A stretch of DNA of 32,180 nucleotides from a virus, in IMG/VR virus record IMGVR_UViG_3300025543_000120, positions 1 to 32,180 of that record. One strand, written 5' to 3'. Positions 12,781 to 31,913 of this stretch are shown piece after piece. A program made the position numbers and the translations under genes. How positions within the stretch are numbered: position 1 is the first letter of the stretch; every line of letters starts with the position of its first letter. The notes below the pieces were generated by a model, which saw only the letters and a list, made by a program, of their open reading frames with translations, did not search any database and was not told the origin of the DNA.

Positions 12781-15216
12781 CTACCTTGGGTTAAACTCTG
12801 AAAGGTCAAATCCATCAAGACTATCTTCATTAGATTCAAACCTTTGAGGAGGTAAATTATTTTTTCTTTGATTGATTAATCTTGATTGTTCTGTGTTTGC
12901 CTGAGATATTCTATCTGCCTTAGCTCCCTCTCTTTGAGTTTCTCTTTGAGACAATGCTTCAGAATCCATGTCTCGAAGTTGAAGGTTGTAATTAAACTCT
13001 TCCTGCATTAACTTACTTTTTAATACGGCTTCATTATTTTGTTTCTCAATTTCAAACGCTATTTCAGCTTGCTTTAACTGCATTTTACCCTGCACCTCAG
13101 CCTGTTGTTGTTGCATTACAAGTTGCTGACTCATTTCTTGAGACTTAAGAGCTTGTTGAGTCTGCATAGCTTGCTGCTGCATAGCTTGTTGTTGTTGTTG
13201 CTCTTGTAAAGCTTTACGTTTTACTTTAAGTAATTGATTAGCAAGTTTAATATTTCTAATCTCCCTAATATCAATTGCATCCTCTAAGTTTATATCACCT
13301 TTAGATAATGCCATTTGTATGTTAGACTCTAACTGAGCCTTCTGTTCTTCGTCAGGAGCTATTTCAATAAATATTCCAAAGTCATAAATGTATAAGTCTT
13401 TTATGTCATTAAGTATACTAACATTATACTTACCAATAGCATTAGCAAAATCATCTTTAAAATCAGCATATTGTAAAATATCTGCAATTCTATAAGTTAT
13501 GGCTTCAGATAAACTTCTATAAAGATATAAAGAGCCATCAAGTATATGCCTTGTAGCCACATTAGAATTTAATGCTGCTAGTTTTTGTAAGCCAACTAAA
13601 GAATTAGGATCAGGATTAGAAGCATCTCTAGCCTCATTTAAACCTGTTACCTGTCTAATCATTCCTAAGTAATGATTATAGTTAGCAATAAGCATCTGTG
13701 TTTTACTTGCACCTGAGCTTGATTGTAATTCTTTAATAGGAACTTTACCTTGATTATACTCTCCATCCTGCGTATAACTCCTACCAATAACAGAACCTGT
13801 TTGAAAATACATACGTAATGCATCCTCTGGGTTGTATGCTGCTCCTGTTCCTAAATCTATCTCATTTAATCCATCAGCATCTATGTATACACCATCAGGT
13901 ACAACTTTAGCAATAACTTGTTGTAGTTTTAAATGTGTAATTTGAATTAAATCAGCAAATGGTATCATCCTTCTAGTCAAGGATTCAATACTTCCTTTAT
14001 ACATTCTTGGTGCTACTGCTACATAATTTGGTAATGCGTGTTGCTGAGATGACTTAGGTCTTACCATATTTTCAGCAAGCTCCCATTTTAAAATAATACT
14101 TGTTCCCATAACCATGATACCATCGTACCAAACATCTATGGTTTTTTCTATTTTTTCAAATCTACCCTCCTCCATCATTTCGATAGGTGGATTGAATTGG
14201 TCATCTTTTTCAATAATTTTTGACCCTCCATTCTCTAGTATTCTTTTTTTATACACGACCTTTTTTGTGGTCTTATAATTAAAATACATAAGAGTAACTG
14301 TGTCTTTATGAAACAAGTCATTATCTTGAACTTGAGATACATTATAATAATCATACCAAGACTGAGAATATTTAGATATCTCTTCTAAATCCTCATTGGT
14401 TAAAGATTGGTCAATCTTCATACACTCTGTTATTGGTATGGTTTTAATTTCACCCCAATAAAAACAATCTTTAAAATGTGGATCTTCTGTATAACTATAA
14501 ACAATATTAGCAGGGTCAACATACTTTATTTCAACTCCTGCTCCTGGTAAAAAATCATGCTTTGCACAACCTATACCTAAGACTGTTAAATCATAGTCTA
14601 TTCTTTTTCTAGTATCGTTATAATGGTTTTCAGTAAAAATAGTATTAATTGCTGCCTCTTCAGCTATCTCTATAGCAGGCTTATATTTTAGCTGCATATA
14701 TAAATTTAACTCTTCATCAGTTTGAGGAAGGTCATCAGGATTCATAACAAATGGGTCTGCTCCTGTTTCTTTTTGAACAATTTCTAGAATGTCTTTTGCT
14801 GCTGATTGACCTTGTATCATGTCTTGATACTTACTTCTTTTTGATTGAGACATTGCATCTTCTGCGTATGCCTTAACATCAAACATTCTGTCATTCATTC
14901 CATTAACAACAACATCAACAAACTTAGGGATAATAGGAACGGGTGTCCAATCTAAGTTAAGATAACTTAAATCTCCATCAACTGAAAGTTCATTTTTATA
15001 TTTAGCAACAGACTGTTCACCTCTTGCATAAAGACGAAGTCTTTGAAAATCTCTTGATTGATTATAAAATCTACAACTATTTGAGTCTTTTTTAAACCAC
15101 TCATATTGAATAGCCTGACCTATTTGCAGTCCAAATTCATCTGAAGCTTTTTCAGAATCAGAAACAAACTGACTTGGGAAACCAATAGATGAGATATTTA
15201 TCTTTACGTCTTTCAT
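12781..15216 (-). CDS. Portal protein (811 aa)
   Basis: Forms the dodecameric ring at the head vertex through which DNA enters and leaves. Support comes from position directly after TerL (the start abuts the TerL stop), size, and typical portal phrases: KFVDVVVNGMNDRMFDVKAY near residue 100, YDLTVLGIGCAKHDFLPG and VDPANIVYSYTEDPHF (about 210-245), and RQVTGLNEARDASNPD (about 535-550), the stem and wing segments seen in crAss-like portals. The C-terminal about 150 residues are Gln-rich coiled coil (EQQQQQAMQQQAMQTQQ, then repeated Q/M/K/E helix), as in the long barrel of podovirus portals. The coding DNA here has CAA/CAG runs (about 13095-13215). Confidence 0.88.
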   Translation of the reverse strand: MKDVKINISSIGFPSQFVSDSEKASDEFGLQIGQAIQYEWFKKDSNSCRFYNQSRDFQRLRLYARGEQSVAKYKNELSVDGDLSYLNLDWTPVPIIPKFVDVVVNGMNDRMFDVKAYAEDAMSQSKRSKYQDMIQGQSAAKDILEIVQKETGADPFVMNPDDLPQTDEELNLYMQLKYKPAIEIAEEAAINTIFTENHYNDTRKRIDYDLTVLGIGCAKHDFLPGAGVEIKYVDPANIVYSYTEDPHFKDCFYWGEIKTIPITECMKIDQSLTNEDLEEISKYSQSWYDYYNVSQVQDNDLFHKDTVTLMYFNYKTTKKVVYKKRILENGGSKIIEKDDQFNPPIEMMEEGRFEKIEKTIDVWYDGIMVMGTSIILKWELAENMVRPKSSQQHALPNYVAVAPRMYKGSIESLTRRMIPFADLIQITHLKLQQVIAKVVPDGVYIDADGLNEIDLGTGAAYNPEDALRMYFQTGSVIGRSYTQDGEYNQGKVPIKELQSSSGASKTQMLIANYNHYLGMIRQVTGLNEARDASNPDPNSLVGLQKLAALNSNVATRHILDGSLYLYRSLSEAITYRIADILQYADFKDDFANAIGKYNVSILNDIKDLYIYDFGIFIEIAPDEEQKAQLESNIQMALSKGDINLEDAIDIREIRNIKLANQLLKVKRKALQEQQQQQAMQQQAMQTQQALKSQEMSQQLVMQQQQAEVQGKMQLKQAEIAFEIEKQNNEAVLKSKLMQEEFNYNLQLRDMDSEALSQRETQREGAKADRISQANTEQSRLINQRKNNLPPQRFESNEDSLDGFDLSEFNPR

Positions 15217-17382
15217 TTATTTAATTATTTCACTACGATTTCCTTTGTTACTATATCTAGCAAAGTTAACAATAATATTTGATTGTTTTTTTACAGGCTG
15301 ATAAAGGTGTCTTTGACAAGCCATTATAGCTAATCCTGAACTAATAGATGCATCAAATTTAGTTCTATTACTAATATCAAATTTTGCCCAATCTTCTAAA
15401 GTTCTACTAAATGGCATATATCCCATTTCATCAGGACCAATCAAACCTACTTTACTTTCAATGTAAGACTCAATAGCTGCTGCGTGTGCTTGTTTTACCG
15501 CCTCACTTGAGTTAGGTATTCCTCCAAGCTCTTTCTCTGTCTTAGATAGCTTGTTTTTAAGTTTGTCTGGTCTACTAATGCTAAAGCCTCTGTACCCCCT
15601 ATTTTTAAAATGATACAACAACCTCGGCTTATTGTTCTCTACCAATATTGGCATTCCATAAAATACACAAGCCATTAAAACTTCTTCAAAAAATATTTCT
15701 GCAGTTTGAGGTCTGGCAACATACTCTAAAAAAAACTGATTGCTTGGTGCGTCATCCATGTTGAACTTTGTTAATCCATGCAAAGCACCATTAGAAGCAC
15801 CACCTCCAACTGTTCCTGAAATATCGTAACTATCACAACCAAAAGCACCTAAGTGTTCGTTTGAAGGGAAAAAATCTCCTCTATGATTTTTCTTATATCT
15901 GTTTTGTAAATTCTTTTGAGGAATCCATCCCACTAAAAATCTACCTCTAGTATTAGGAGTCCATATAACTTCAGTATCTTTAATTCCATTTTTCCAAGAA
16001 AATGAACCCCTAGTTGTATGATGCTCTTTTATTAAAGAGTCATTGTAATCTATCTGTTGATATATACGAGTAAGATTAAACAAAGACTGTTTACTTTCAT
16101 CTCTAAATGCATGAGACTCTGTTCTAGGAAATTGTCTGTAAAATTCATTTAATGCATCAGCATCATTTTTTAAACTATCAACCTCATTACCCCAATACTC
16201 CACAACATCATCCATTGGCATACCATGCTCATCTATATATCCCTCAAAGTTCCACTCCATTGGAATAAATAAAGAGTACATTCCGCTTTTTGTTTGTCCA
16301 TTGTTACTTCTTTTTTTAGGATCGGAATCGTAGTAAAGTTTTTTAAACTCTTCCCCACCTTTGCTAAGTGCATTAGAAGTTGAACCCATCATACATTTAC
16401 CAATAATTCGCCTACCTAATCGTAAACAAGTCTTAGTAACACGATAGTTATTTTGTATATTGTTTGGCTTAAGCCATTTTCCACTTTCATCGTGTGCTAA
16501 CAATAATAGCTTTTCCCCATCATAAGAGTTGTCATCTGTATTCTTCCAATCAATCGTAGTATCAAGACCCTCCATAACATTGTCATCTAGGTCATACATA
16601 TTTTTTTTTGTAATCTTAGAAGCAGGAACTCTAAATGCTAATTCTGTTTTAGGCTTATCCATACCATCCTGAACAGGCTTAAAAAAGAAAGGATAGTTTC
16701 GTACAATTGGAACAACCTTATCTGTAAACATTTTTTTAGCATCAGACCCAGACTTAGAAAGAATTCCTATACGAGAGTTTTTAGATATCGTTCCTATATT
16801 TGCACACTCTTCGGAAGCCATGTATGAAAAACCTGAACGTCTAATTTTTAGATATATCATTCCAAAAGAACGTGGGTCTGCTTTACAAGCCTCCCAATAG
16901 ATATAAAAAACTCTGTTTGCTTCTCTAAAATCAGGATATCCTACATCAATTTTTGTCCATTGAAGATACATATACTGAGAACCTGTAATGTATGTAGGCT
17001 TATTATTATTTACAAACCAATAACCTTGATCTCTTTTATCAAACTCTTCTTCAATATAATCAACCCATTGTGCCTTAAAAGTATTTGGATGTTCATTCCA
17101 TTGAAATATTGATTGAATTTTATCTAAAACTTTCGGAAGCTCTTTTCTGTTCCATTTGTTTGTGTCTCTTTGAAGAGACTTTGGAGATTTAGGCAATCCT
17201 ATTCTTAATCCGTTAATGTCGTATATTTCTCCAATCTCTCCTGTTTTGGATATAATAACTACATCATATTTTTCATCGTAACCATATTGCCACGACTTAT
17301 TGTTGTTCTTTTTTTTGAGTATACCTTTAGGGATATAATCTTCTAGGACTGTATATAAATTATGAAGACCTTCGTTCTGCAA
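15217..17382 (-). CDS. terL: Terminase large subunit (721 aa)
   Basis: DNA-packaging motor ATPase with nuclease. The ATPase part shows a Walker-A-like segment LKIRRSGFSYMAS (residues about 178-190), which lacks the standard GxxxxGK[ST], and Walker B with catalytic Glu in LLLLAHDESG (about 292-301). A coupling-motif-like GSTSN is near 333-337. The nuclease part has the acidic residues of an RNase H-like fold: GCDSYD (D517, D520), LVENN (E582) and TKFDAS (D677). The RRSGF form is typical of TerLs in flavobacterial and crAss-like phages, so its absence of the usual Lys is a family trait and not decay. The start overlaps the upstream small gene by 23 nt, and the stop touches portal. Confidence 0.92.
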   Translation of the reverse strand: MQNEGLHNLYTVLEDYIPKGILKKKNNNKSWQYGYDEKYDVVIISKTGEIGEIYDINGLRIGLPKSPKSLQRDTNKWNRKELPKVLDKIQSIFQWNEHPNTFKAQWVDYIEEEFDKRDQGYWFVNNNKPTYITGSQYMYLQWTKIDVGYPDFREANRVFYIYWEACKADPRSFGMIYLKIRRSGFSYMASEECANIGTISKNSRIGILSKSGSDAKKMFTDKVVPIVRNYPFFFKPVQDGMDKPKTELAFRVPASKITKKNMYDLDDNVMEGLDTTIDWKNTDDNSYDGEKLLLLAHDESGKWLKPNNIQNNYRVTKTCLRLGRRIIGKCMMGSTSNALSKGGEEFKKLYYDSDPKKRSNNGQTKSGMYSLFIPMEWNFEGYIDEHGMPMDDVVEYWGNEVDSLKNDADALNEFYRQFPRTESHAFRDESKQSLFNLTRIYQQIDYNDSLIKEHHTTRGSFSWKNGIKDTEVIWTPNTRGRFLVGWIPQKNLQNRYKKNHRGDFFPSNEHLGAFGCDSYDISGTVGGGASNGALHGLTKFNMDDAPSNQFFLEYVARPQTAEIFFEEVLMACVFYGMPILVENNKPRLLYHFKNRGYRGFSISRPDKLKNKLSKTEKELGGIPNSSEAVKQAHAAAIESYIESKVGLIGPDEMGYMPFSRTLEDWAKFDISNRTKFDASISSGLAIMACQRHLYQPVKKQSNIIVNFARYSNKGNRSEIIK

Positions 17383-17650
17383 ATCCTTGTTTTGTATCTA
17401 GTTTACTTGGACCTCGTTCCTCGATTTCCATTAAGTTTTTTTCATTCTCTATTCTAGTCAGTATATCAAACGCATCAAATATAGCTAACTTTTTAGTTGC
17501 TGCTGCATTTTTTAATCTATCTGCAGCTAACTCATCTTCATTCTCACCATATTTTATAATATCTTCCTTAGCTACTTTAATTAGTTGCTCTACGGCTTTC
17601 ATCCCTGCCTGAATAATATTCTTTTTTAAAGTTTTTGAGTCTAGTGCCAT
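17360..17650 (-). CDS. Small helical protein before TerL; terminase small subunit candidate (96 aa)
   Basis: All-helical and charged (KNIIQAGMKAVEQLIKVAKE, then DELAADRLKNAAATKKLAIF, then DILTRIENEKNLME). It overlaps the TerL start by 23 nt in another frame, the usual place and coupling for TerS. The size is small for a TerS but possible, since these often have a helix-turn-helix plus an oligomerisation coil. I see no clear helix-turn-helix, so TerS is inference from position. Confidence 0.55.
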   Translation of the reverse strand: MALDSKTLKKNIIQAGMKAVEQLIKVAKEDIIKYGENEDELAADRLKNAAATKKLAIFDAFDILTRIENEKNLMEIEERGPSKLDTKQGFAERRSS

Positions 17651-17702
17651 TAGGATTGTATTTTATTCTTGGTCTTTTTTTTCTTTTAGGTTTGTCATTC
17701 AT
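17577..17702 (-). CDS. Possible overlapping 41-aa basic protein
   Basis: The ATG at 17702 overlaps the stop of the GroES-like gene as ATGA. The frame runs 41 codons through the otherwise empty 48-nt gap and over the start of the 96-aa gene. The product is strongly basic (MNDKPKRKKRPRIKYNPNG at the start, then KNFKKEYYSGRDESRR). The ATGA coupling is in favour; the 74-nt overlap with a better-supported gene is against. Confidence 0.3.
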   Translation of the reverse strand: MNDKPKRKKRPRIKYNPNGTRLKNFKKEYYSGRDESRRATN

Positions 17703-18262
17703 AATTTTATTGTTATTTGATGATCAAACATTCTGTAAAGTTTCTCTCCATCAACCTCAAACTCATATTCACTTTCTGGCTTAAAACAAATTTTATCTCC
17801 TTGATTTACATTTTGAGAGTGTAAGTAGTCATTAGTGTATTTTATTTCACCAACTAATGGTTCTTCATTGGTATTCTTATATAGATAATAATCCTCTGTA
17901 TCTAAAGGCTTAACAAAACAGTATCTACCATGAGTTTTCCAATCTTTACCATTATGATATAAATAAAATTGATCAGGCTCTACAAAAAACAAGTTGTCTT
18001 TAAAAAAACTTCTACCACTTTTTCTTCTTCCATACATATCATTATAGAATTTAAAAACATTGTGGTGTACCAATAACTTATCTCCTACTTTTATAGGACC
18101 ATTGTATACAATTGGTGTGGCTATCACTTCAGCTATCCTATTGGAAGCCATGTGATTCTCTTCAGATGTGCTAGTTATAAAATCTACGTCACCTATTTTT
18201 TTGGTGTTGTTGTATCTTTTATCATCTAAAGGCTTAGTAATGAATAAATATGGTGACCTCAT
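17699..18262 (-). CDS. Tandem GroES-like co-chaperonin protein (187 aa)
   Basis: Reads as two GroES folds in a row. First half: KPLDD (10-14), IAEVIATP (43-50), IKVGDKLLVHHN (57-68), then after a basic insertion the closing strand NLFFVEPDQFYLY (90-102). Second half: FVKPLD (116-121), VGEIKYTND (137-145), GDKICF (155-160) and EVDGEKLYRMFDHQITIKL (169-187). These follow the GroES order KPL, GEVxAVG, VKxGDxVLF and the DGEEYLIMRESDILAI-type end. Similar proteins in flavobacterial phages are sometimes labelled GroES. It lies in the packaging operon, starts with a 1-nt TAATG overlap, and precedes the TerS candidate. It may fold or chaperone head proteins, perhaps with the phage GroEL; that partnership is inference. 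A plain beta-barrel virion protein is the alternative. Confidence 0.6.
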   Translation of the reverse strand: MRSPYLFITKPLDDKRYNNTKKIGDVDFITSTSEENHMASNRIAEVIATPIVYNGPIKVGDKLLVHHNVFKFYNDMYGRRKSGRSFFKDNLFFVEPDQFYLYHNGKDWKTHGRYCFVKPLDTEDYYLYKNTNEEPLVGEIKYTNDYLHSQNVNQGDKICFKPESEYEFEVDGEKLYRMFDHQITIKL

Positions 18263-21559: not shown

Positions 21560-24500
21560 TTATGGATTTATATCTATTCCGTTTAATTCTGCCGTTGCTA
21601 TTTCTGTGATTTCTGTTTGAGTTAATTCTTTGTTCCAAAACCTAACACAATCTATATTTCCATCAACACTATTTGCAACACCATCAAAATATTTACCAAT
21701 ATAAACAGGGCTTGTGCCATTTTCCATTGCCGTATAATTTCCTCCAGTTGTAGTACCTACCTCAATACCATCAAAATATAATTTAACACCACTTAAGCTA
21801 CTACTAGCATCATAAGTTGCAATAACAGAATACCAAACACCTATGGAGGGTGTTATAACATACCTTCTAAATAAAGAACCACCAGAACTATCATCAAATA
21901 ATCTAAAATCAAAATTACCACTATCATAAGCTATTTGATATTCCCTTATGCCATTTCTTTTTTCTATAATTTGTGGTGCTCCTAATGAATCAAACCTTAT
22001 TAATAAACTAATACTAAATGGAATATCACTTGTTCCATTTCCAAAACTTAATTCGTTAGTGTCTGCAATTTGAACATCACTTGTAGTACCATTAAATACT
22101 CCAGTTTTTCCTACAAGTCCACTTGCATAAGTTAAATCAGTTGCAGTTCCATTATTAGTTCCTACTGTATCTAAAGCATTATCCTCAAATTTATATTCTG
22201 AAATAATATTTTGTAAAGGTATTTGTAGTGGTAATATACTATTTCCTGCGTTTTCTGTGTTATAAATATCTGTTACCTCTGATTGTGTTAATTCTCTGTT
22301 TTTCCAAATATGAAACTCATCAAGTTTACCATCAAACTCACCTTCGGTAGGTATCCAACCTTGTGAACCTATATTTAAGGATGAAGGTGTATCTACCATA
22401 TATAAATAAGATCCTTCATTATTACTTGTTGTCGGTATAGATACGCTATTTATATATGGTTTTATACCACTAAAAACAGAACTACCATCATAAGTTATAG
22501 CTATATGATTCCAATCACCAACAACAGGTAGAAATGAAAATTTTGCAGATATGCTAACATTTTGAAGAGATTGACTATATAAATTCATATATAACTCACC
22601 ATTAACATAGCTAAAAATATATTCAATACCTTCATAAGTTGTTTTAGAAAAAGGCACTACAAGGGCATTTAAACCAGGTACAGTATCAAAGTTTGCCCAA
22701 AAGGAAAAACTAAAAGGTAAATCATTTGCGTTATTTGTAAAACTAAAATCACTACTATCTGCTGCAACTGTATAATCATCTGAACCATCTAATTCAGCAC
22801 AATCAGAAACTTTACCGCCTGTTACACCTGCAGTCGCATTTCCATTTGCAGTTAAAGGATTGTTTCCCGTATAATCTGAAAAATCAGTATCAAAAGAATA
22901 TGATGCTACTAGATTAGTTGTATATGGAACAGGTACTGCTCCACCATCAGTTATTGTCCAACCAGAGTTTATTAAAGAAGTCCTTGCTGCTTCTGCTGCT
23001 CCTCCTGAAGTATATTGTGAATTACCAAAATTAACAGTTCCACTAAAAGTCATTGCACCTTGAGCATCCCAACCTATTAGCAAAGCATCGTAATTGGGAG
23101 TTGATAACGTTATACCAACACCGAAACTTACTAAAGAAGTTACTTGCGTAACAGTCCACCCACTAATATCTTGGTCAAAATTAGTAGCCCCCAAGAACAT
23201 ACTGTTCATACTACTAAATTGGCTAGTATTCCAACCTGTTATATCTTGATTAAAATTAGTAGCAAACCTAAACATGCTAGCTGCTGTAACAGGCGTTGTA
23301 GTATTTAAAGTCCAACTGCTTAATGGTTGATTAAAGGCTGTACATGACCTAAACATATCTGTCATAAATGTAACGTTTGATAAATCCCAATTAGCAACAC
23401 TACTATTGAATACTCCACAGAAGAAGAACATAGCTGTTAAATTAGTTGCACTTGACATATCCCAAGCACTCATGTCTTGATTAAATACGTCACAGTTGTA
23501 AAAGCATCTATAAAAATTAGAAACTCTTGAAACATCCCAGTTACTGAAAGATTGGTTCATTGCTCTGTTGTCAGAAAACGTTGTGTATAAATCATCAACT
23601 AAAGATGTTGTTACCCAACCATTTAAATCTTGATTAAGAACTATACAAAGACTAAACGTAGCATAGAATGATCTAACATTTGAAACATCCCAATTATCCA
23701 TTGGTTGATTATAAGCATAATTATTATAAAATGCATGTTTCATACTGTTAATATTACTAACGTCCCACTCGTTTAAGTTTGTGTTAAAAGATGTGCAATC
23801 CCTAAATATTGCTTGCATACTTAAACAGACTGATAAGTCAGGTGTATCGGTAGCTGATAAGACATCTAAGTTTGTACATCCATAAAATGCATTTAACATA
23901 CTTGTCCAAGCAGTATCCCCCCAACTTTTTATATCTAATAATTTTAATTTATCCCCGACATTGGCAAAAACAATTTTACCACTAGCAGCAGTTACGCTAA
24001 CATCATAGGTTCCTGCAGTTGCGTAAGTATGTGTTTGTGCATTTACAACACTAGTATCTGTGTTCCCATCTCCCCAATCTACATCATAAGTTCCAGTCCA
24101 AGGTATTGTGAATTGATCAGAATTACTAGTACCTACATTATCAGTTTTAACACTTATAGTAAATGGAACAGGTACTGCTCCACCATCTATAATTCCACCC
24201 CATTTAGCTATAAGACTTGTTCTTGCTGCCTCTGCTGCTCCTCCTGGTGTGTATTGTGAATTACCAAAATCTACTGTGCCACTATAACTCATTGCTCCTT
24301 GTGCATCCCAAGCTATTAGCAAAGCATCGTAATTAGGAGTTGATAATGTGACATCTGTCATAAACTGTTGTAAGTTTGTTACTTGGGATATTTGCCAACT
24401 GCTTAAATCCTGGTCAAAAGACGTACAACCTTGAAACATAATAAACATATTAGTAACACCACTAACATTCCAATTTCCTATATCACTATTAAAAATTGTA

Positions 24501-26290
24501 CAACTTTGGAACATACGCTCCATATTTGTAGCACTACTCACATCCCAACTACTTAAATCATTATTCCACGATGATTTATTATATAAAAACCACTTAAAAT
24601 TTGTTACACTACTTACATCCCAACTACTTATATCTCCATTAAAAAGAGGTACATTACTAAACATATAACTCATATCTGTTACATTGCTAGTATTCCAACT
24701 ACTCATATCACCATTAAAATTTGATGCCTCTCTAAACATTGCACCCATAGATGTTATATTACTCACATCCCAATTATTTAAATTAGGAATAGAGACTAAT
24801 GATGAGCAAAATCCAAACATTCCTTGTAAATTCGTAAAAGGACCAACTGGAACATCTGTTGCTGAAACTGTAGTAAGTAAATTATTATAAGCAAATGCAG
24901 ATTGAATAGAGGTTGTACCACCAAAATTTGTATTACCCCATTGTTTAACTTCTATTAACTTTGATTTATCAGGTGACTGTTGTAAAAATAGTGCTGGGAA
25001 AATTCCACTAATTCTTATATCATAGCTTCCTGCACCACTTGGAAAAGTTAATGTAACATCATTGTCAGTTGTTAGACCTGTTAATGTTTGACCATCATAT
25101 TCAATATCATAATTATACCCAATGCCATTTTTAACTTGTAGCGTAAATTGGTCATCATTACTTGCTCCTACATTATCAGTTTTTACTCTAAGAATAAGTG
25201 GAACAGATACTGGTCCACCATCATTAATTCCACCCCATTTTGCTATAAGACTTGTTCTTGCTGCTTCTGCTGCTCCTCCTGATGTGTATTGAGAGCTACC
25301 AAAATCTACTGTTCCTGAGTAAGACATTGCACCTTGTGCATCCCATCCTATTAGCAAAGCATCGTAATTAGAAGTTGATAATCTGACATCTGGCATAAAA
25401 TCAATAAAATTGGCTACTTGAGTAATACCCCAAAGAGATAAATTTTGGTTAAATGCTATATTTTTATAAAACATTTGACGCATATTAGTTACATTACTAA
25501 CATCCCAAGCACTAATGTCTCTATTAAATATAGTATTAATTCCAAAAGTGTTACCTGAAAACATTTGATTCATATCAGTTACACTACTCACATCCCAAGC
25601 ACTAATGTCTCCATCAAATGCTGCAGCATCAGAAAACATACTATTCATATCCTCAACACTACTAACATCCCAAGAATTTAATGACTGATTAAATAATGGT
25701 GCAGCAGCAAACATATTATTCATATCAGTTACACTACTGACAGTCCAAGAATCTAAAGGCTGATTAAACACAGTAGCCTCCGCAAACATATATTCCGTAA
25801 TCTCAACGCTACTGACATCCCAAGAATTTATATTTTGGTTAAATGCTTGAGTATCTTCAAACATACTTGCCATATCAGTTACACTACTAACATCCCAAGA
25901 ACTTATATCTTGATTAAATGCGGTAGCACTCGAAAACATACCTGCCATATTAGTTGCACTAATAGTATTCCAAGTACTTATATTTTGATTAAATGAATTT
26001 GCAGAAGCAAACATATAATCCATATCAGTTACACTACTAACATCCCAAGCACTAATGTCTCCGTTAAAAAATTCTGCTGAGTCAAATGCATCCGACATAA
26101 TAGTAACCTGACTAACATCCCAATCAGGCATCATTCCATAAGGAACTACATCAAATAGTCCTGTAACAGGTTCTTCTGCTAAGGCATCATTTACCGCCTG
26201 CTGAAAAGTTGCGTCTGTTAATGGAACTTTTCCACCACCACCACCTTTAGCACCTGAAGAATAAATTGCGTTTGCTATTGCTATATACAT
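21560..26290 (-). CDS. Giant adhesin: three BspA/DUF285 blocks plus two LamG-like domains (1576 aa)
   Basis: Likely a receptor-binding or surface-decoration protein of the virion. After a phage-type start (MYIAIANAI) and a Gly linker come three blocks of DUF285 repeats. Each repeat is about 24-30 residues, of the form WDVSSVTDM, MF, FNQDISSW. Block 1 is about 56-300, block 2 about 480-645 and block 3 about 800-1060. Each block ends in a cap with NYDALLIGWDAQGAM, then SGGAAEAARTSLI. A PKD-like strand set (WGDG ... HTYATAGTYDV, about 738-765) precedes block 3. Two concanavalin/LamG-like domains follow (about 1127-1345 and 1362-1570). DUF285 (BspA-type) repeats are common on Bacteroidetes and Mycoplasma surface proteins. 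The C-terminal LamG modules could bind glycans. Confidence 0.85.
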   Translation of the reverse strand: MYIAIANAIYSSGAKGGGGGKVPLTDATFQQAVNDALAEEPVTGLFDVVPYGMMPDWDVSQVTIMSDAFDSAEFFNGDISAWDVSSVTDMDYMFASANSFNQNISTWNTISATNMAGMFSSATAFNQDISSWDVSSVTDMASMFEDTQAFNQNINSWDVSSVEITEYMFAEATVFNQPLDSWTVSSVTDMNNMFAAAPLFNQSLNSWDVSSVEDMNSMFSDAAAFDGDISAWDVSSVTDMNQMFSGNTFGINTIFNRDISAWDVSNVTNMRQMFYKNIAFNQNLSLWGITQVANFIDFMPDVRLSTSNYDALLIGWDAQGAMSYSGTVDFGSSQYTSGGAAEAARTSLIAKWGGINDGGPVSVPLILRVKTDNVGASNDDQFTLQVKNGIGYNYDIEYDGQTLTGLTTDNDVTLTFPSGAGSYDIRISGIFPALFLQQSPDKSKLIEVKQWGNTNFGGTTSIQSAFAYNNLLTTVSATDVPVGPFTNLQGMFGFCSSLVSIPNLNNWDVSNITSMGAMFREASNFNGDMSSWNTSNVTDMSYMFSNVPLFNGDISSWDVSSVTNFKWFLYNKSSWNNDLSSWDVSSATNMERMFQSCTIFNSDIGNWNVSGVTNMFIMFQGCTSFDQDLSSWQISQVTNLQQFMTDVTLSTPNYDALLIAWDAQGAMSYSGTVDFGNSQYTPGGAAEAARTSLIAKWGGIIDGGAVPVPFTISVKTDNVGTSNSDQFTIPWTGTYDVDWGDGNTDTSVVNAQTHTYATAGTYDVSVTAASGKIVFANVGDKLKLLDIKSWGDTAWTSMLNAFYGCTNLDVLSATDTPDLSVCLSMQAIFRDCTSFNTNLNEWDVSNINSMKHAFYNNYAYNQPMDNWDVSNVRSFYATFSLCIVLNQDLNGWVTTSLVDDLYTTFSDNRAMNQSFSNWDVSRVSNFYRCFYNCDVFNQDMSAWDMSSATNLTAMFFFCGVFNSSVANWDLSNVTFMTDMFRSCTAFNQPLSSWTLNTTTPVTAASMFRFATNFNQDITGWNTSQFSSMNSMFLGATNFDQDISGWTVTQVTSLVSFGVGITLSTPNYDALLIGWDAQGAMTFSGTVNFGNSQYTSGGAAEAARTSLINSGWTITDGGAVPVPYTTNLVASYSFDTDFSDYTGNNPLTANGNATAGVTGGKVSDCAELDGSDDYTVAADSSDFSFTNNANDLPFSFSFWANFDTVPGLNALVVPFSKTTYEGIEYIFSYVNGELYMNLYSQSLQNVSISAKFSFLPVVGDWNHIAITYDGSSVFSGIKPYINSVSIPTTSNNEGSYLYMVDTPSSLNIGSQGWIPTEGEFDGKLDEFHIWKNRELTQSEVTDIYNTENAGNSILPLQIPLQNIISEYKFEDNALDTVGTNNGTATDLTYASGLVGKTGVFNGTTSDVQIADTNELSFGNGTSDIPFSISLLIRFDSLGAPQIIEKRNGIREYQIAYDSGNFDFRLFDDSSGGSLFRRYVITPSIGVWYSVIATYDASSSLSGVKLYFDGIEVGTTTGGNYTAMENGTSPVYIGKYFDGVANSVDGNIDCVRFWNKELTQTEITEIATAELNGIDINP
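22922..23107 (-). repeat. Adhesin cap repeat, copy 3
   Basis: Encodes the third cap (NYDALLIGWDAQGAM to DGGAVPVP). It is near-identical at DNA level to the copies at 24137-24346 and 25175-25381; the run around GCATCCCA and AGCAAAGCATCGTAATT is shared. Confidence 0.75.
24137..24346 (-). repeat. Adhesin cap repeat, copy 2
   Basis: Encodes the second cap and the start of the following KTDNVGTSN strand. High DNA identity to the other two caps suggests duplication or ongoing exchange. Confidence 0.75.
25175..25381 (-). repeat. Adhesin cap repeat, copy 1
   Basis: Encodes the first cap (NYDALLIGWDAQGAM to VKTDN), matching copies 2 and 3. Confidence 0.75.
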
Positions 26291-29354: not shown

Positions 29355-29789
29355 ATGAAATCAGACTACTTAAAATATTGGAGGGTAGTACGTCAGTTTG
29401 TAAAAGTAAAATACGGACTAAGCCAAGCTGACCTAGATATTTTACTATTTTTAAAATCAGAAGAATACTTTTCAAAAGATAAGTTTGATGAATTTGATTC
29501 ACTTATTAGTTGGAACGTACACAGGTTTGATAATCTATTGCGTGATAATTGGATAGAGGTTTTTAGAAAACGTCAAGGAAAATATAAGGGAGTATATACA
29601 CTATCTCATAAAGCAAAAAGAGTCACCACATCAATATATAAAAAGCTAGATGGAGAAGAAATTCCTAGTAGCAACGATGGTAACCCTATGTTTTTGAAAA
29701 ACGTGTCATACACCGACAAGGTGTATCGAAATTTTATAAAAGAAATGAATGCTGCTACAAGACAACAACGACATCAGACTCCGAAATAA
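29355..29789 (+). CDS. Winged-helix-type phage protein, putative regulator (144 aa)
   Basis: The only plus-strand gene. The form MKSDYLKYWRVVRQFVKVKY, then LSQADLDILLFLKSEEYFSK, then DEFDSLISWNVHRFDNLLRD, then WIEVFRKRQGKYKGVYTLSH is a MarR-like winged-helix layout, with the last part giving the wing (RKRQGKYKGVYTLSHKAKR). The same pattern is common in flavobacterial phage genomes. It may control the divergent small-gene operon from the 41-bp gap, which is inference. The end overlaps groES by 35 nt in the opposite direction. Confidence 0.65.
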   Translation: MKSDYLKYWRVVRQFVKVKYGLSQADLDILLFLKSEEYFSKDKFDEFDSLISWNVHRFDNLLRDNWIEVFRKRQGKYKGVYTLSHKAKRVTTSIYKKLDGEEIPSSNDGNPMFLKNVSYTDKVYRNFIKEMNAATRQQRHQTPK

Positions 29790-30012
29790 CACTATGCTGA
29801 GTTCCGCTAATAACCATCTTGTAACCTGCCCTTGAGTCGTAGTAGATATAATCGTTAATTCCAACAACATCTACATCAGTACCTGGCATTATAACCACAC
29901 CCTTCTTGTATCTCAAATCTTTGGTGTCCTCATTTGTTAGAAGGATACCAGACTCCGTACTTATCTCCTCTACAATCTCATTAATAATTATGTATTTCCC
30001 GATTGGTTTCAT
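29755..30012 (-). CDS. groES: Phage co-chaperonin GroES (85 aa)
   Basis: GroES lid for the phage GroEL. It follows the GroES order: KPIGKYIII (2-10), mobile loop ESGILLTNEDT (20-30), KGVVIMPG (37-44), INDYIYYD (52-59) and SVISESDVVVVL (74-85). It is about 12 residues shorter than E. coli GroES, and most of the loss is in the roof region: TDVDVV replaces about 15 residues, much like the open roof of T4 gp31. It begins by ATGA overlap with groEL and comes after it, the reverse of the bacterial groES-groEL order. The 3' end is overlapped by the plus-strand gene. Confidence 0.9.
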   Translation of the reverse strand: MKPIGKYIIINEIVEEISTESGILLTNEDTKDLRYKKGVVIMPGTDVDVVGINDYIYYDSRAGYKMVISGTQHSVISESDVVVVL

Positions 30013-31619
30013 TCTGTCTCGTATGTTCTAGCCATTGTAATAATAGCATTGGTTGATAAAATAGTTACCGCAACCGATACCGCATTCTGCAATGCAGACC
30101 TGGTTACCTTGGTCGGATCAATGACACCCATCTCTATCAGGTCACCATACTCCTTGGTTTTTAGGTTGTATCCAAACGAGAAGCCACCTAAGTAATGTTC
30201 CTTTAAAATTTCATCAGGGTCGAGTCCTGCATTGTTAAGAATTTGTCTGTATGGAGCTTGTAATGCGTTCTCTAAAATTTTTTTGGCTACAACAAGCTCT
30301 AGCTCATTATTGTCACCCTGTGGTCTGTAACCTATTTTTGCTAATGCCATACCTGCTCCTGGAAGGATACCCTCCTCAAGTGCTGAACGTGAGGCACATA
30401 CCGCATCATCAACCCTGTCATACAACTCCTTCTGCTCTAAGTCAGTATTACCACCAACGTATATAACACCTATCCCTCCCGTTAAGGATGCAATCCTCTG
30501 AAGTATAAAGTCCTTGTCCTGACTCTGTTTTGTAATTTTATGTGCATCCCACAACTCTGAAACCCTTGTGTTTACACTAGCATTATCTTCTGCCTCACTT
30601 AGTATCACAGATGAGTCTCTCCCAACTATCACCCTGGAAGCGTGTCCCAAATCTGAAAACTCAATGAGGCTAAGATCATCACCCGTTTTTTCCGAAAAGT
30701 ATGTAGCACCAACCGATAACGCAATGTCCTGCATCAACTCGTGCTGACGATATCCAAAGTTTGGTGGTGGTACTGTACATATCTGAAGTCCCCTCTTCTG
30801 CACATTAGCTGCCAAGGTCGCTATCACATTTGTACTGCATGGCGATATAATCAATAATTTTTTCTTATCTTGTATGATTGGCTTTAATATGTTCTCTATC
30901 TCAAGTATGTTAGAAATGTCCGAGTCACACACAAGTATGTGTACATCGTCAAGTATACACTCATCCTTCTTTTGGTGGTTTATAAACATCGGTGACGAGT
31001 ATCCCTTGTCTATCTTTATCCCCTTCGTGGTCTCGTAAAAAGTTTTTGGTGTAGGCGAGTTCTCTACTGTAACTATACCACTCTTGCCAACCTCATTGTA
31101 ACAGTCCGATATAATCTTGCCAATAAACTTGTCGTTGTTAGCCGATATCGTAGCAACATCCAATAAACGCTTCTTGGTTACCTTCTTGCTTTCCGATTTT
31201 AATTCCTTAACAATCAACTCAGTCTCACTCACAATGTGTCTAAGAACCTCTGTCTTATTTACATTACCTGTAATAAATTTCAACCCCTGCTTGACAAGTG
31301 CTTCTGTCAATACTATCGCAGTAGTAGTCCCATCACCTGCTGAAGCTGCAGTCCTGGCTGATGCCTCCTTCATCATCCTTACCGCCAAGTTGCCAACAGG
31401 GTCTGCCATGTCATAACTCTTAGCAACAGTTACACCATCCTTGGTGACTGTCATTCCATGTAAGTGATGTTGTGATTCGATTATTACAGTCTGACCCATA
31501 GGTCCTAATGTGCTCTTGACCGCACTCGATATCATCTCGATACCATGAAGAAGTTTCTTCTGTGAGTCTTCGCCAATCGTAAGCTCCTTTGGTGAGTAAC
31601 CACCTGGTGATTGATTCAT
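30009..31619 (-). CDS. groEL: Phage chaperonin GroEL (536 aa)
   Basis: Folds proteins in a double-ring cage with GroES and ATP. All key motifs are seen: TLGPMGQ (37-43), KDGVTVA (60-66), GDGTTT (95-100, catalytic Asp near 96), ATISAN (156-161), DRVDDA (401-406, the ATPase Asp at 405) and GILPGAGMAL (417-426, with GAG for the usual GGG). GYSSPMFIN (206-214) and ISNIL (235-239) mark the apical domain. It ends TMARTYETE without the GGM-rich tail of bacterial GroEL, so the cavity floor differs. The base composition is richer in G+C than the structural genes (some 60-base lines near 53%). TATATTTG lies 26 nt upstream. Confidence 0.97.
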   Translation of the reverse strand: MNQSPGGYSPKELTIGEDSQKKLLHGIEMISSAVKSTLGPMGQTVIIESQHHLHGMTVTKDGVTVAKSYDMADPVGNLAVRMMKEASARTAASAGDGTTTAIVLTEALVKQGLKFITGNVNKTEVLRHIVSETELIVKELKSESKKVTKKRLLDVATISANNDKFIGKIISDCYNEVGKSGIVTVENSPTPKTFYETTKGIKIDKGYSSPMFINHQKKDECILDDVHILVCDSDISNILEIENILKPIIQDKKKLLIISPCSTNVIATLAANVQKRGLQICTVPPPNFGYRQHELMQDIALSVGATYFSEKTGDDLSLIEFSDLGHASRVIVGRDSSVILSEAEDNASVNTRVSELWDAHKITKQSQDKDFILQRIASLTGGIGVIYVGGNTDLEQKELYDRVDDAVCASRSALEEGILPGAGMALAKIGYRPQGDNNELELVVAKKILENALQAPYRQILNNAGLDPDEILKEHYLGGFSFGYNLKTKEYGDLIEMGVIDPTKVTRSALQNAVSVAVTILSTNAIITMARTYETE

Positions 31620-31644
31620 TTTAATTTAATTTAATTTCGTTAAG

Positions 31645-31652
31645 CAAATATA
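31645..31652 (-). promoter_or_regulatory. -7 box (TATATTTG) for groEL-groES
   Basis: The minus strand reads TTGTATATTTGCTTAACG, 26 nt before the ATG at 31619. It shares TATATTTG with the head and packaging operons. Confidence 0.6.
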
Positions 31653-31678: not shown

Positions 31679-31875
31679 GTGACAAACGTGACAAAAAAAA
31701 CGCCCCTATCTAATATATAAAAAACTATTATATTTATATTTCTTTCCCCTAACGGGACTAATAAAAATTGTCACAAAAAGCACAGAGCTGATAATCAATA
31801 AGTTAACTCCTTAAAACTGTCACAAAACTGTCACAAAACTGTCACAAAACTAATAAAAACACCCAAAGTTGTCAC
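31679..31875. repeat. Seven TGTCAC/GTGACA sites (iteron- or operator-like)
   Basis: GTGACA at 31679-31684 and 31688-31693. TGTCAC at 31769-31774, 31818-31823, 31829-31834, 31840-31845 and 31870-31875. The middle three are exactly 11 bp apart in an identical context (AAAACTGTCAC). Confidence 0.85.
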
Positions 31876-31884
31876 ATTATTAAC

Positions 31885-31913
31885 AAAAAAAAGAGGCAAC
31901 ATATAGAAACCTC
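31885..31913 (-). terminator. Terminator after the 59-aa gene
   Basis: On the minus strand GAGG pairs with CCTC across a 13-nt loop, followed by eight T, 18 nt after the gene stop. The stem is short, so it is less certain than the others. Confidence 0.5.

Follow-up and report, generated by a model that had tools for sequence, protein, structure and literature searches.

A reversed groEL-groES pair and a second gene predicted to encode a tandem Cpn10 protein in a lineage of podoviruses

We studied a 32,180-base stretch of DNA (hereafter, the window) from IMGVR_UViG_3300025543_000120, which is a fragment of an approximately 60-kb podovirus genome with a crAss-type tail (muzzle) domain. The nearest named genome is that of Podoviridae sp. 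ctfjg026 (MW202828; 60,850 bp, circular), which has the same layout as the window, and related contigs near completeness are 57-65 kb in length. Family searches identified virion structural proteins and a holin among the other genes of the window. The podovirus genes around groEL and groES are in agreement with the proposal of a sequence-only reading that the pair is carried by a phage genome. The features considered in this study are as follows.

410-1237, muzzle C-terminal domain
12781-15216, portal
15217-17382, large terminase (TerL), 721 aa
17699-18262, minus strand, second GroES-like gene (dCpn10), 187 aa, two predicted tandem Cpn10 barrels, upstream of TerL (PHROG_13932)
29755-30012, minus strand, groES, single-domain co-chaperonin, 85 aa (PF00166)
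30009-31619, minus strand, groEL, group I chaperonin large subunit, 536 aa (PF00118, PHROG_5725)
31644-31652, minus strand, TATATTTGC, Bacteroidota-type -7 promoter element (TAnnTTTG) upstream of groEL, by motif match
31769-31889, minus strand, TTTTGTGACA repeat cluster in the groEL upstream region, four exact copies, some at 11-nt spacing

The groEL product matched Pfam Cpn60_TCP1 (PF00118) over residues 30-529 (E 3.7e-57; 194.6 bits versus a cut-off of 34.3) and covered model positions 1-488 of 490, which indicates a full-length Cpn60 architecture; the match to the PHROG_5725 groEL family was 2e-133. We compared 13 residues in or related to the ATPase pocket (T30, L31, G32, P33, D52, D87, G88, T89-T91, D398, G415, and D495) with those of E. 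coli, and the window and 26/26 lineage members agreed with E. coli at every one of them, including the ATP-binding and catalytic set of D52, GDGTTT, D398, and D495. The GGM tail at the C-terminus is absent from the phage GroEL. The residues at its inter-ring contacts are variable and by themselves do not point to a single or a double ring. In 26/26 GroELs, Glu occupies the helix-H position aligned to E. coli L234, and V263/V264 are replaced by Ala; because of these replacements, the affinity for clients or lids may differ from that of E. coli GroEL. The dN/dS ratio of groEL against close relatives was about 0.09-0.11 with dS near saturation, and the range for groEL and groES together was about 0.04-0.11 under the same limit. 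Such strong purifying selection shows that the two reading frames are not due to chance. No further groEL was found in the window.

The 85-aa GroES matched Pfam Cpn10 (PF00166) with an E value of 4.2e-10 (40 bits versus a cut-off of 21.1). The S-G-x-x-L motif of the mobile loop (S-G-[IL]-[IL]-L; S21, G22, and L25) is invariant in all 36 lineage GroES sequences, and in this lineage the gene with the intact motif is always located near groEL. The roof hairpin is absent throughout the lineage, with 9-10 of its residues lacking in comparison with Thermus and E. coli GroES. The fold predicted by AF2 (pLDDT 91) gave PDB matches that were all Cpn10 proteins (E down to 6.5e-6), including T4 gp31 (1g31_A), and the protein groups with Cpn10s by both fold and sequence. 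The top single-sequence PDB match was domain 1 of algal Cpn20, in which the roof region is likewise short. In MW202828 (19875-20180), groES is annotated from a start further upstream than the one supported here, which gives a 44-nt overlap with groEL; the lineage-conserved start gives a shorter protein.

The groEL stop and the groES start share ATGA, so that the minus strand reads ...gagacagaATGAaaccaatc... with groEL first. The same order was found in 166/166 lineage loci having both genes; 41 of them have the exact 4-base overlap, and the others have a gap, which in a few cases reaches 2 kb. The order with the overlap is common to the Elemovirus isolates, which are Flavobacterium phages, and their IMG/VR relatives. 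In contrast, groES comes first in all 76 bacterial loci in which both genes were found, and likewise in other phages (phi38:1, immuto, and DAC16). The exact ORFs, the Pfam matches, and the 13 identical residues, together with these two sets of loci, thus confirmed the earlier description of a GroEL with conserved ATPase motifs and a GroES on the minus strand, joined by ATGA in an order opposite to that of bacteria. One change on the GroEL tree accounts for the reversed order, with other viral groups sampled to a limited extent. Marine et al. (2017, ISME J) reportedly found that viral GroELs of virioplankton diverge from bacterial ones and that gene order follows GroEL phylogeny, and the reversed viral order is said to have been known since that study. 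The pair in the window is a further member of an arrangement already on record.

In 35 of 47 representatives, TAnnTTTG was found at positions -45 to -20 of the groEL ORF start (24-41 nt before the start), compared with a background of 2.3%. The longest ORF was taken as groEL for these counts, and in most of the remaining representatives the element is located at an equal distance from the next in-frame ATG downstream. G occurs in at most 3 of 46 elements at both H positions, the upstream sequence is AT-rich, and there is no clear -33 element. The promoter of Flavobacterium johnsoniae has been described as a TAHHTTTG -7 element with an AT-rich upstream region and a weak -33 element (PMC6847099), and the groEL upstream region agrees with this description of sigma-ABfr promoters in Bacteroidota. 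Because of this fit, the element suggests a Bacteroidota host. The element was found in 0/37 cases before groES and in 0/22 before dCpn10; as it precedes groEL and not groES, the two genes are probably transcribed as a single mRNA. Scans for sigma-70 promoters and terminators gave results near chance. The TTTTGTGACA repeats, which are kept in part among relatives, are possibly binding sites of a putative regulator.

The second GroES-like gene (17699-18262) was passed over in the sequence-only reading. Residues 14-178 of its 187-aa product matched PHROG_13932, 'co-chaperonin GroES' (3.3e-17). A tandem composition is suggested because the 85-aa groES of related genomes matches just the C-terminal half of PHROG_13932. 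The C-terminal half of dCpn10 was recognized as Cpn10 by Pfam, weakly in the window and above the cut-off only in phi38:1, and also matched solved GroES structures in profile comparison. The N-terminal half was not recognized as Cpn10 by Pfam and is assigned to Cpn10 by the predicted fold only. The best PDB match of the AF2 model (pLDDT 78) was Chlamydomonas Cpn20 (7ekq_R; E 2.5e-5, 199 columns), followed by single Cpn10s, and viral structure models agree with this fold match. The protein is thus predicted to consist of two Cpn10 domains arranged head to tail. Comparison between the two halves gave no match, and only 25 columns matched in the profile comparison between dCpn10 and the small GroES; a recent duplication of groES was not shown by this comparison.

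dCpn10 was matched in 38 of 40 related GroEL-carrying records, and the other two are partial contigs with a match for the small groES only. In 105/105 loci, it precedes TerL on the same strand, and its dN/dS ratio of about 0.03-0.04 indicates strong purifying selection. Among open-licence papers, neither a search for a tandem Cpn10 in phages nor one for crAss-like GroEL/GroES yielded a description of it.

Several known phages share parts of this gene set. MW202828, which is derived from a metagenome (Manatee Spring), belongs to the same lineage and has the same gene order; its GroEL and tandem GroES-like protein are 57% and 59.5% identical to those of the window, respectively, and the tandem gene is annotated as a hypothetical protein. 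Elemovirus (vB_FspP_elemo*, for example, NC_055853) resembles the window in the groEL-groES order with the overlap, the genome size of about 60 kb, the tandem GroES-like gene adjoining TerL, and the -7 element before groEL, whereas its GroEL is only 35% identical and its pair and late genes occupy opposite strands. Cellulophaga phage phi38:1 (Pervagoviridae) also has GroEL, a small Cpn10, and a tandem Cpn10 adjoining TerL, but its order is the host-like groES-(ORF)-groEL and its genome is 72.5 kb; GroEL of phi38:1 has been reported in infected cells and a free-virion sample (PMC13288928). The tandem gene is annotated as co-chaperonin GroES in both Elemovirus and phi38:1. We dropped crAss001 and Cellulophaga phage phi14:2 (Crassvirales) as close models, as both are without the tandem gene and crAss001 is without GroEL; in phi14:2, a GroEL gene is present and groES was not detected nearby. 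EL gp146, OBP gp246, and AR9 gp228 are also phage GroEL homologs, the EL protein being only 27.5% identical to the window GroEL, and these chaperonins have been described as acting without a co-chaperonin (PMC9598537).

We consider that groEL-groES probably encodes a phage-dedicated group I chaperonin with the capsid protein as a likely client, and that the tandem protein most likely serves as a second lid or an assembly chaperone. The ATPase residues conserved in 26/26 members, the purifying selection on all three genes, the -7 element found before groEL only, the mobile loop, the lineage-wide loss of the roof hairpin, the fold matches, and the synteny of dCpn10 with TerL in the window lineage, Elemovirus, and phi38:1 support this view, as do the GroEL genes in the longest contigs found via dCpn10, the reported presence of GroEL in phi38:1 infection, and the Cpn10 core gene of Pervagoviridae. 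On the assembly of these proteins with each other, their timing, their client, and the part played by the tandem protein, our inference is as follows. The products of the pair would be a GroEL ring and its own heptameric lid; both genes would be read, groEL first, into one transcript from a host-type (Bacteroidota sigma-ABfr) promoter dedicated to them. The GroES would clip onto GroEL via the conserved mobile loop. With no roof hairpin, it would leave the closed chamber either open at the top or more spacious, which has been described for T4 gp31. Such a chamber would be well suited to folding a large phage protein, and the major capsid protein (about 54 kDa here) is the likeliest client. The predicted tandem double Cpn10, which is encoded with the terminase, portal, and capsid genes, would most likely be a second lid or an assembly chaperone made late.

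The strongest competing explanation, although we regard it as the less probable one, is that in the tandem Cpn10 the GroES barrel has been reused for a ring-forming protein of morphogenesis or of the virion, and that only the 85-aa GroES serves GroEL. The tandem gene would then occupy the slot in which many tailed phages keep the small terminase, and in three phage lineages it does lie shortly before TerL. A Cpn10 gene is also among the 8 core genes of Pervagoviridae, alongside structural genes (PMC8776804); judging from phi18:3 S0A356 and phi38:1, this core gene would be the tandem gene. No clear GroEL-binding motif of the GGIVL type was found in the dCpn10 loops of the window lineage, where the motif is divergent or absent. 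Against this explanation, candidate motifs are kept in the first domain in Elemovirus (NGLIL) and in the second domain in phi38:1 (NGLRV), as expected of a mobile loop. Moreover, nearly complete genomes with the tandem gene also carry GroEL, as in all of the three longest contigs (>57 kb) found via dCpn10, and neither GroEL nor the tandem gene was found in crAss001 (Crassvirus).

If the tandem protein is a lid, as in the reading that we prefer, a more elaborate scheme can tentatively be imagined, in which two kinds of lid would close one and the same seven-fold GroEL, each on its own or combined in mixed rings. The roofless single-domain GroES would act early and the tandem double Cpn10 late, and the lids would be exchanged between the early phase and capsid assembly. 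We think this scheme possible, though less likely than not; it would amount to a viral parallel, of separate origin, to the Cpn10/Cpn20 lids of chloroplasts. In chloroplasts, a tandem double Cpn10 (Cpn20) and a single-domain Cpn10 occur together with Cpn60 (PMC5780408). Going by the predicted fold of dCpn10, the chloroplast Cpn20/Cpn11 lids and the phage set share the combination of a tandem double and a single Cpn10, and Cpn20 is the best fold match of dCpn10. However, the identity between dCpn10 and Cpn20 is 15% and Cpn20 comes from plant and apicomplexan plastids; the two are almost certainly of independent origin.

It is rather unlikely that the phage proteins pair with host partners, with the phage GroES acting on the host GroEL or the phage GroEL working with a host GroES, or that their main role is to stand in for a host chaperonin which becomes limiting or is switched off in infected cells. 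In favor of this reading, T4 gp31 is a phage lid without the roof hairpin that works with the host GroEL, and single-component phages such as Vibrio phages 207E48.1 and D506 have no annotated GroES gene adjoining GroEL. The window phage shares with T4 a lid without the roof hairpin but, unlike T4, encodes a cognate GroEL. In 166/166 loci, the two genes are neighbors or stay close together, and they share one promoter element, which argues for a matched pair.

Recent capture of groEL-groES from a bacterial host, followed merely by rearrangement, is extremely improbable: the pair does differ in GC3 from the adjoining late genes (0.41 versus 0.14-0.23), but the best bacterial GroEL is only 40% identical (80 loci retrieved from 84,980 species), the GroELs form a single viral clade, the lineage that shares the pair has GroELs with only about 60-67% identity to that of the window, and Flavobacteriaceae groEL genes (GC3 0.12-0.26) match the phage groEL no better. 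We therefore rejected a recent host origin at the sampling used. In the tree, the reversed-order GroELs are separated from the bacterial sequences as one clade with support of 95/91, to be read with caution about long branches; the first tree contained several long branches and was rebuilt without them, and the joining of Elemovirus and the window lineage still unites long branches. The earlier suggestion of a phage lineage of its own, with no recent pickup from a host, is supported by this phylogeny and by the low bacterial identity. Two other statements of the sequence-only reading were not supported. A phage-type base composition of the pair was not borne out, as GC3 is 0.41-0.42 in groEL and groES and 0.14-0.23 in the surrounding late genes, and we dropped composition as a sign of phage ancestry. 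The composition instead looks like that of the early side of the genome, because the early or replication-side genes of MW202828 have GC3 of 0.36-0.52 and its late genes are mostly lower (groEL, 0.41). The view that GroEL is restricted to a few phages is out of date: the GroEL was matched by 252 GenBank phage records, in 230 of which the match covers at least 80% of its length, although a few look like host sequences or fragments, and at least 388 IMG/VR stretches encode GroEL relatives. Several of the GenBank "phage" matches look bacterial, for example, Salmonella contig AFYI01000007 and Acinetobacter phage MD-2021a, in which groS-groL is found among cellular genes.

The viral groEL-groES arrangement is known but little studied. 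Less known is the lineage-wide set of one GroEL and two different lid-type proteins, which also has cultured relatives (Elemovirus and phi38:1). If both lids work, these phages would offer a compact system, amenable to genetics, in which to ask how a seven-fold chaperonin accommodates even-numbered tandem lids, a question shared with chloroplasts, and why a complete folding machine, and not a lid alone, is carried by some phages.

Three other ORFs in the window were observed. A plus-strand ORF (29355-29789) matching PHROG_17028 stands between groEL-groES and the late genes; it is convergent with groES and overlaps its 3' end, and its counterpart in MW202828 is annotated as a repressor. A 96-aa ORF on the minus strand (17360-17650), for which no family match was found, lies between dCpn10 and TerL. 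Because Elemovirus and phi38:1 have no gene at this site and have a longer TerL (876-879 aa versus 721 aa in the window), this ORF may be a split-off N-terminus of TerL or a small terminase. Finally, a 1576-aa protein encoded on the minus strand (21560-26290) contains nine DUF285 repeat stretches together with PKD-like and laminin-G-type domains and, judging from these domains, is probably a receptor-binding or adhesion protein.
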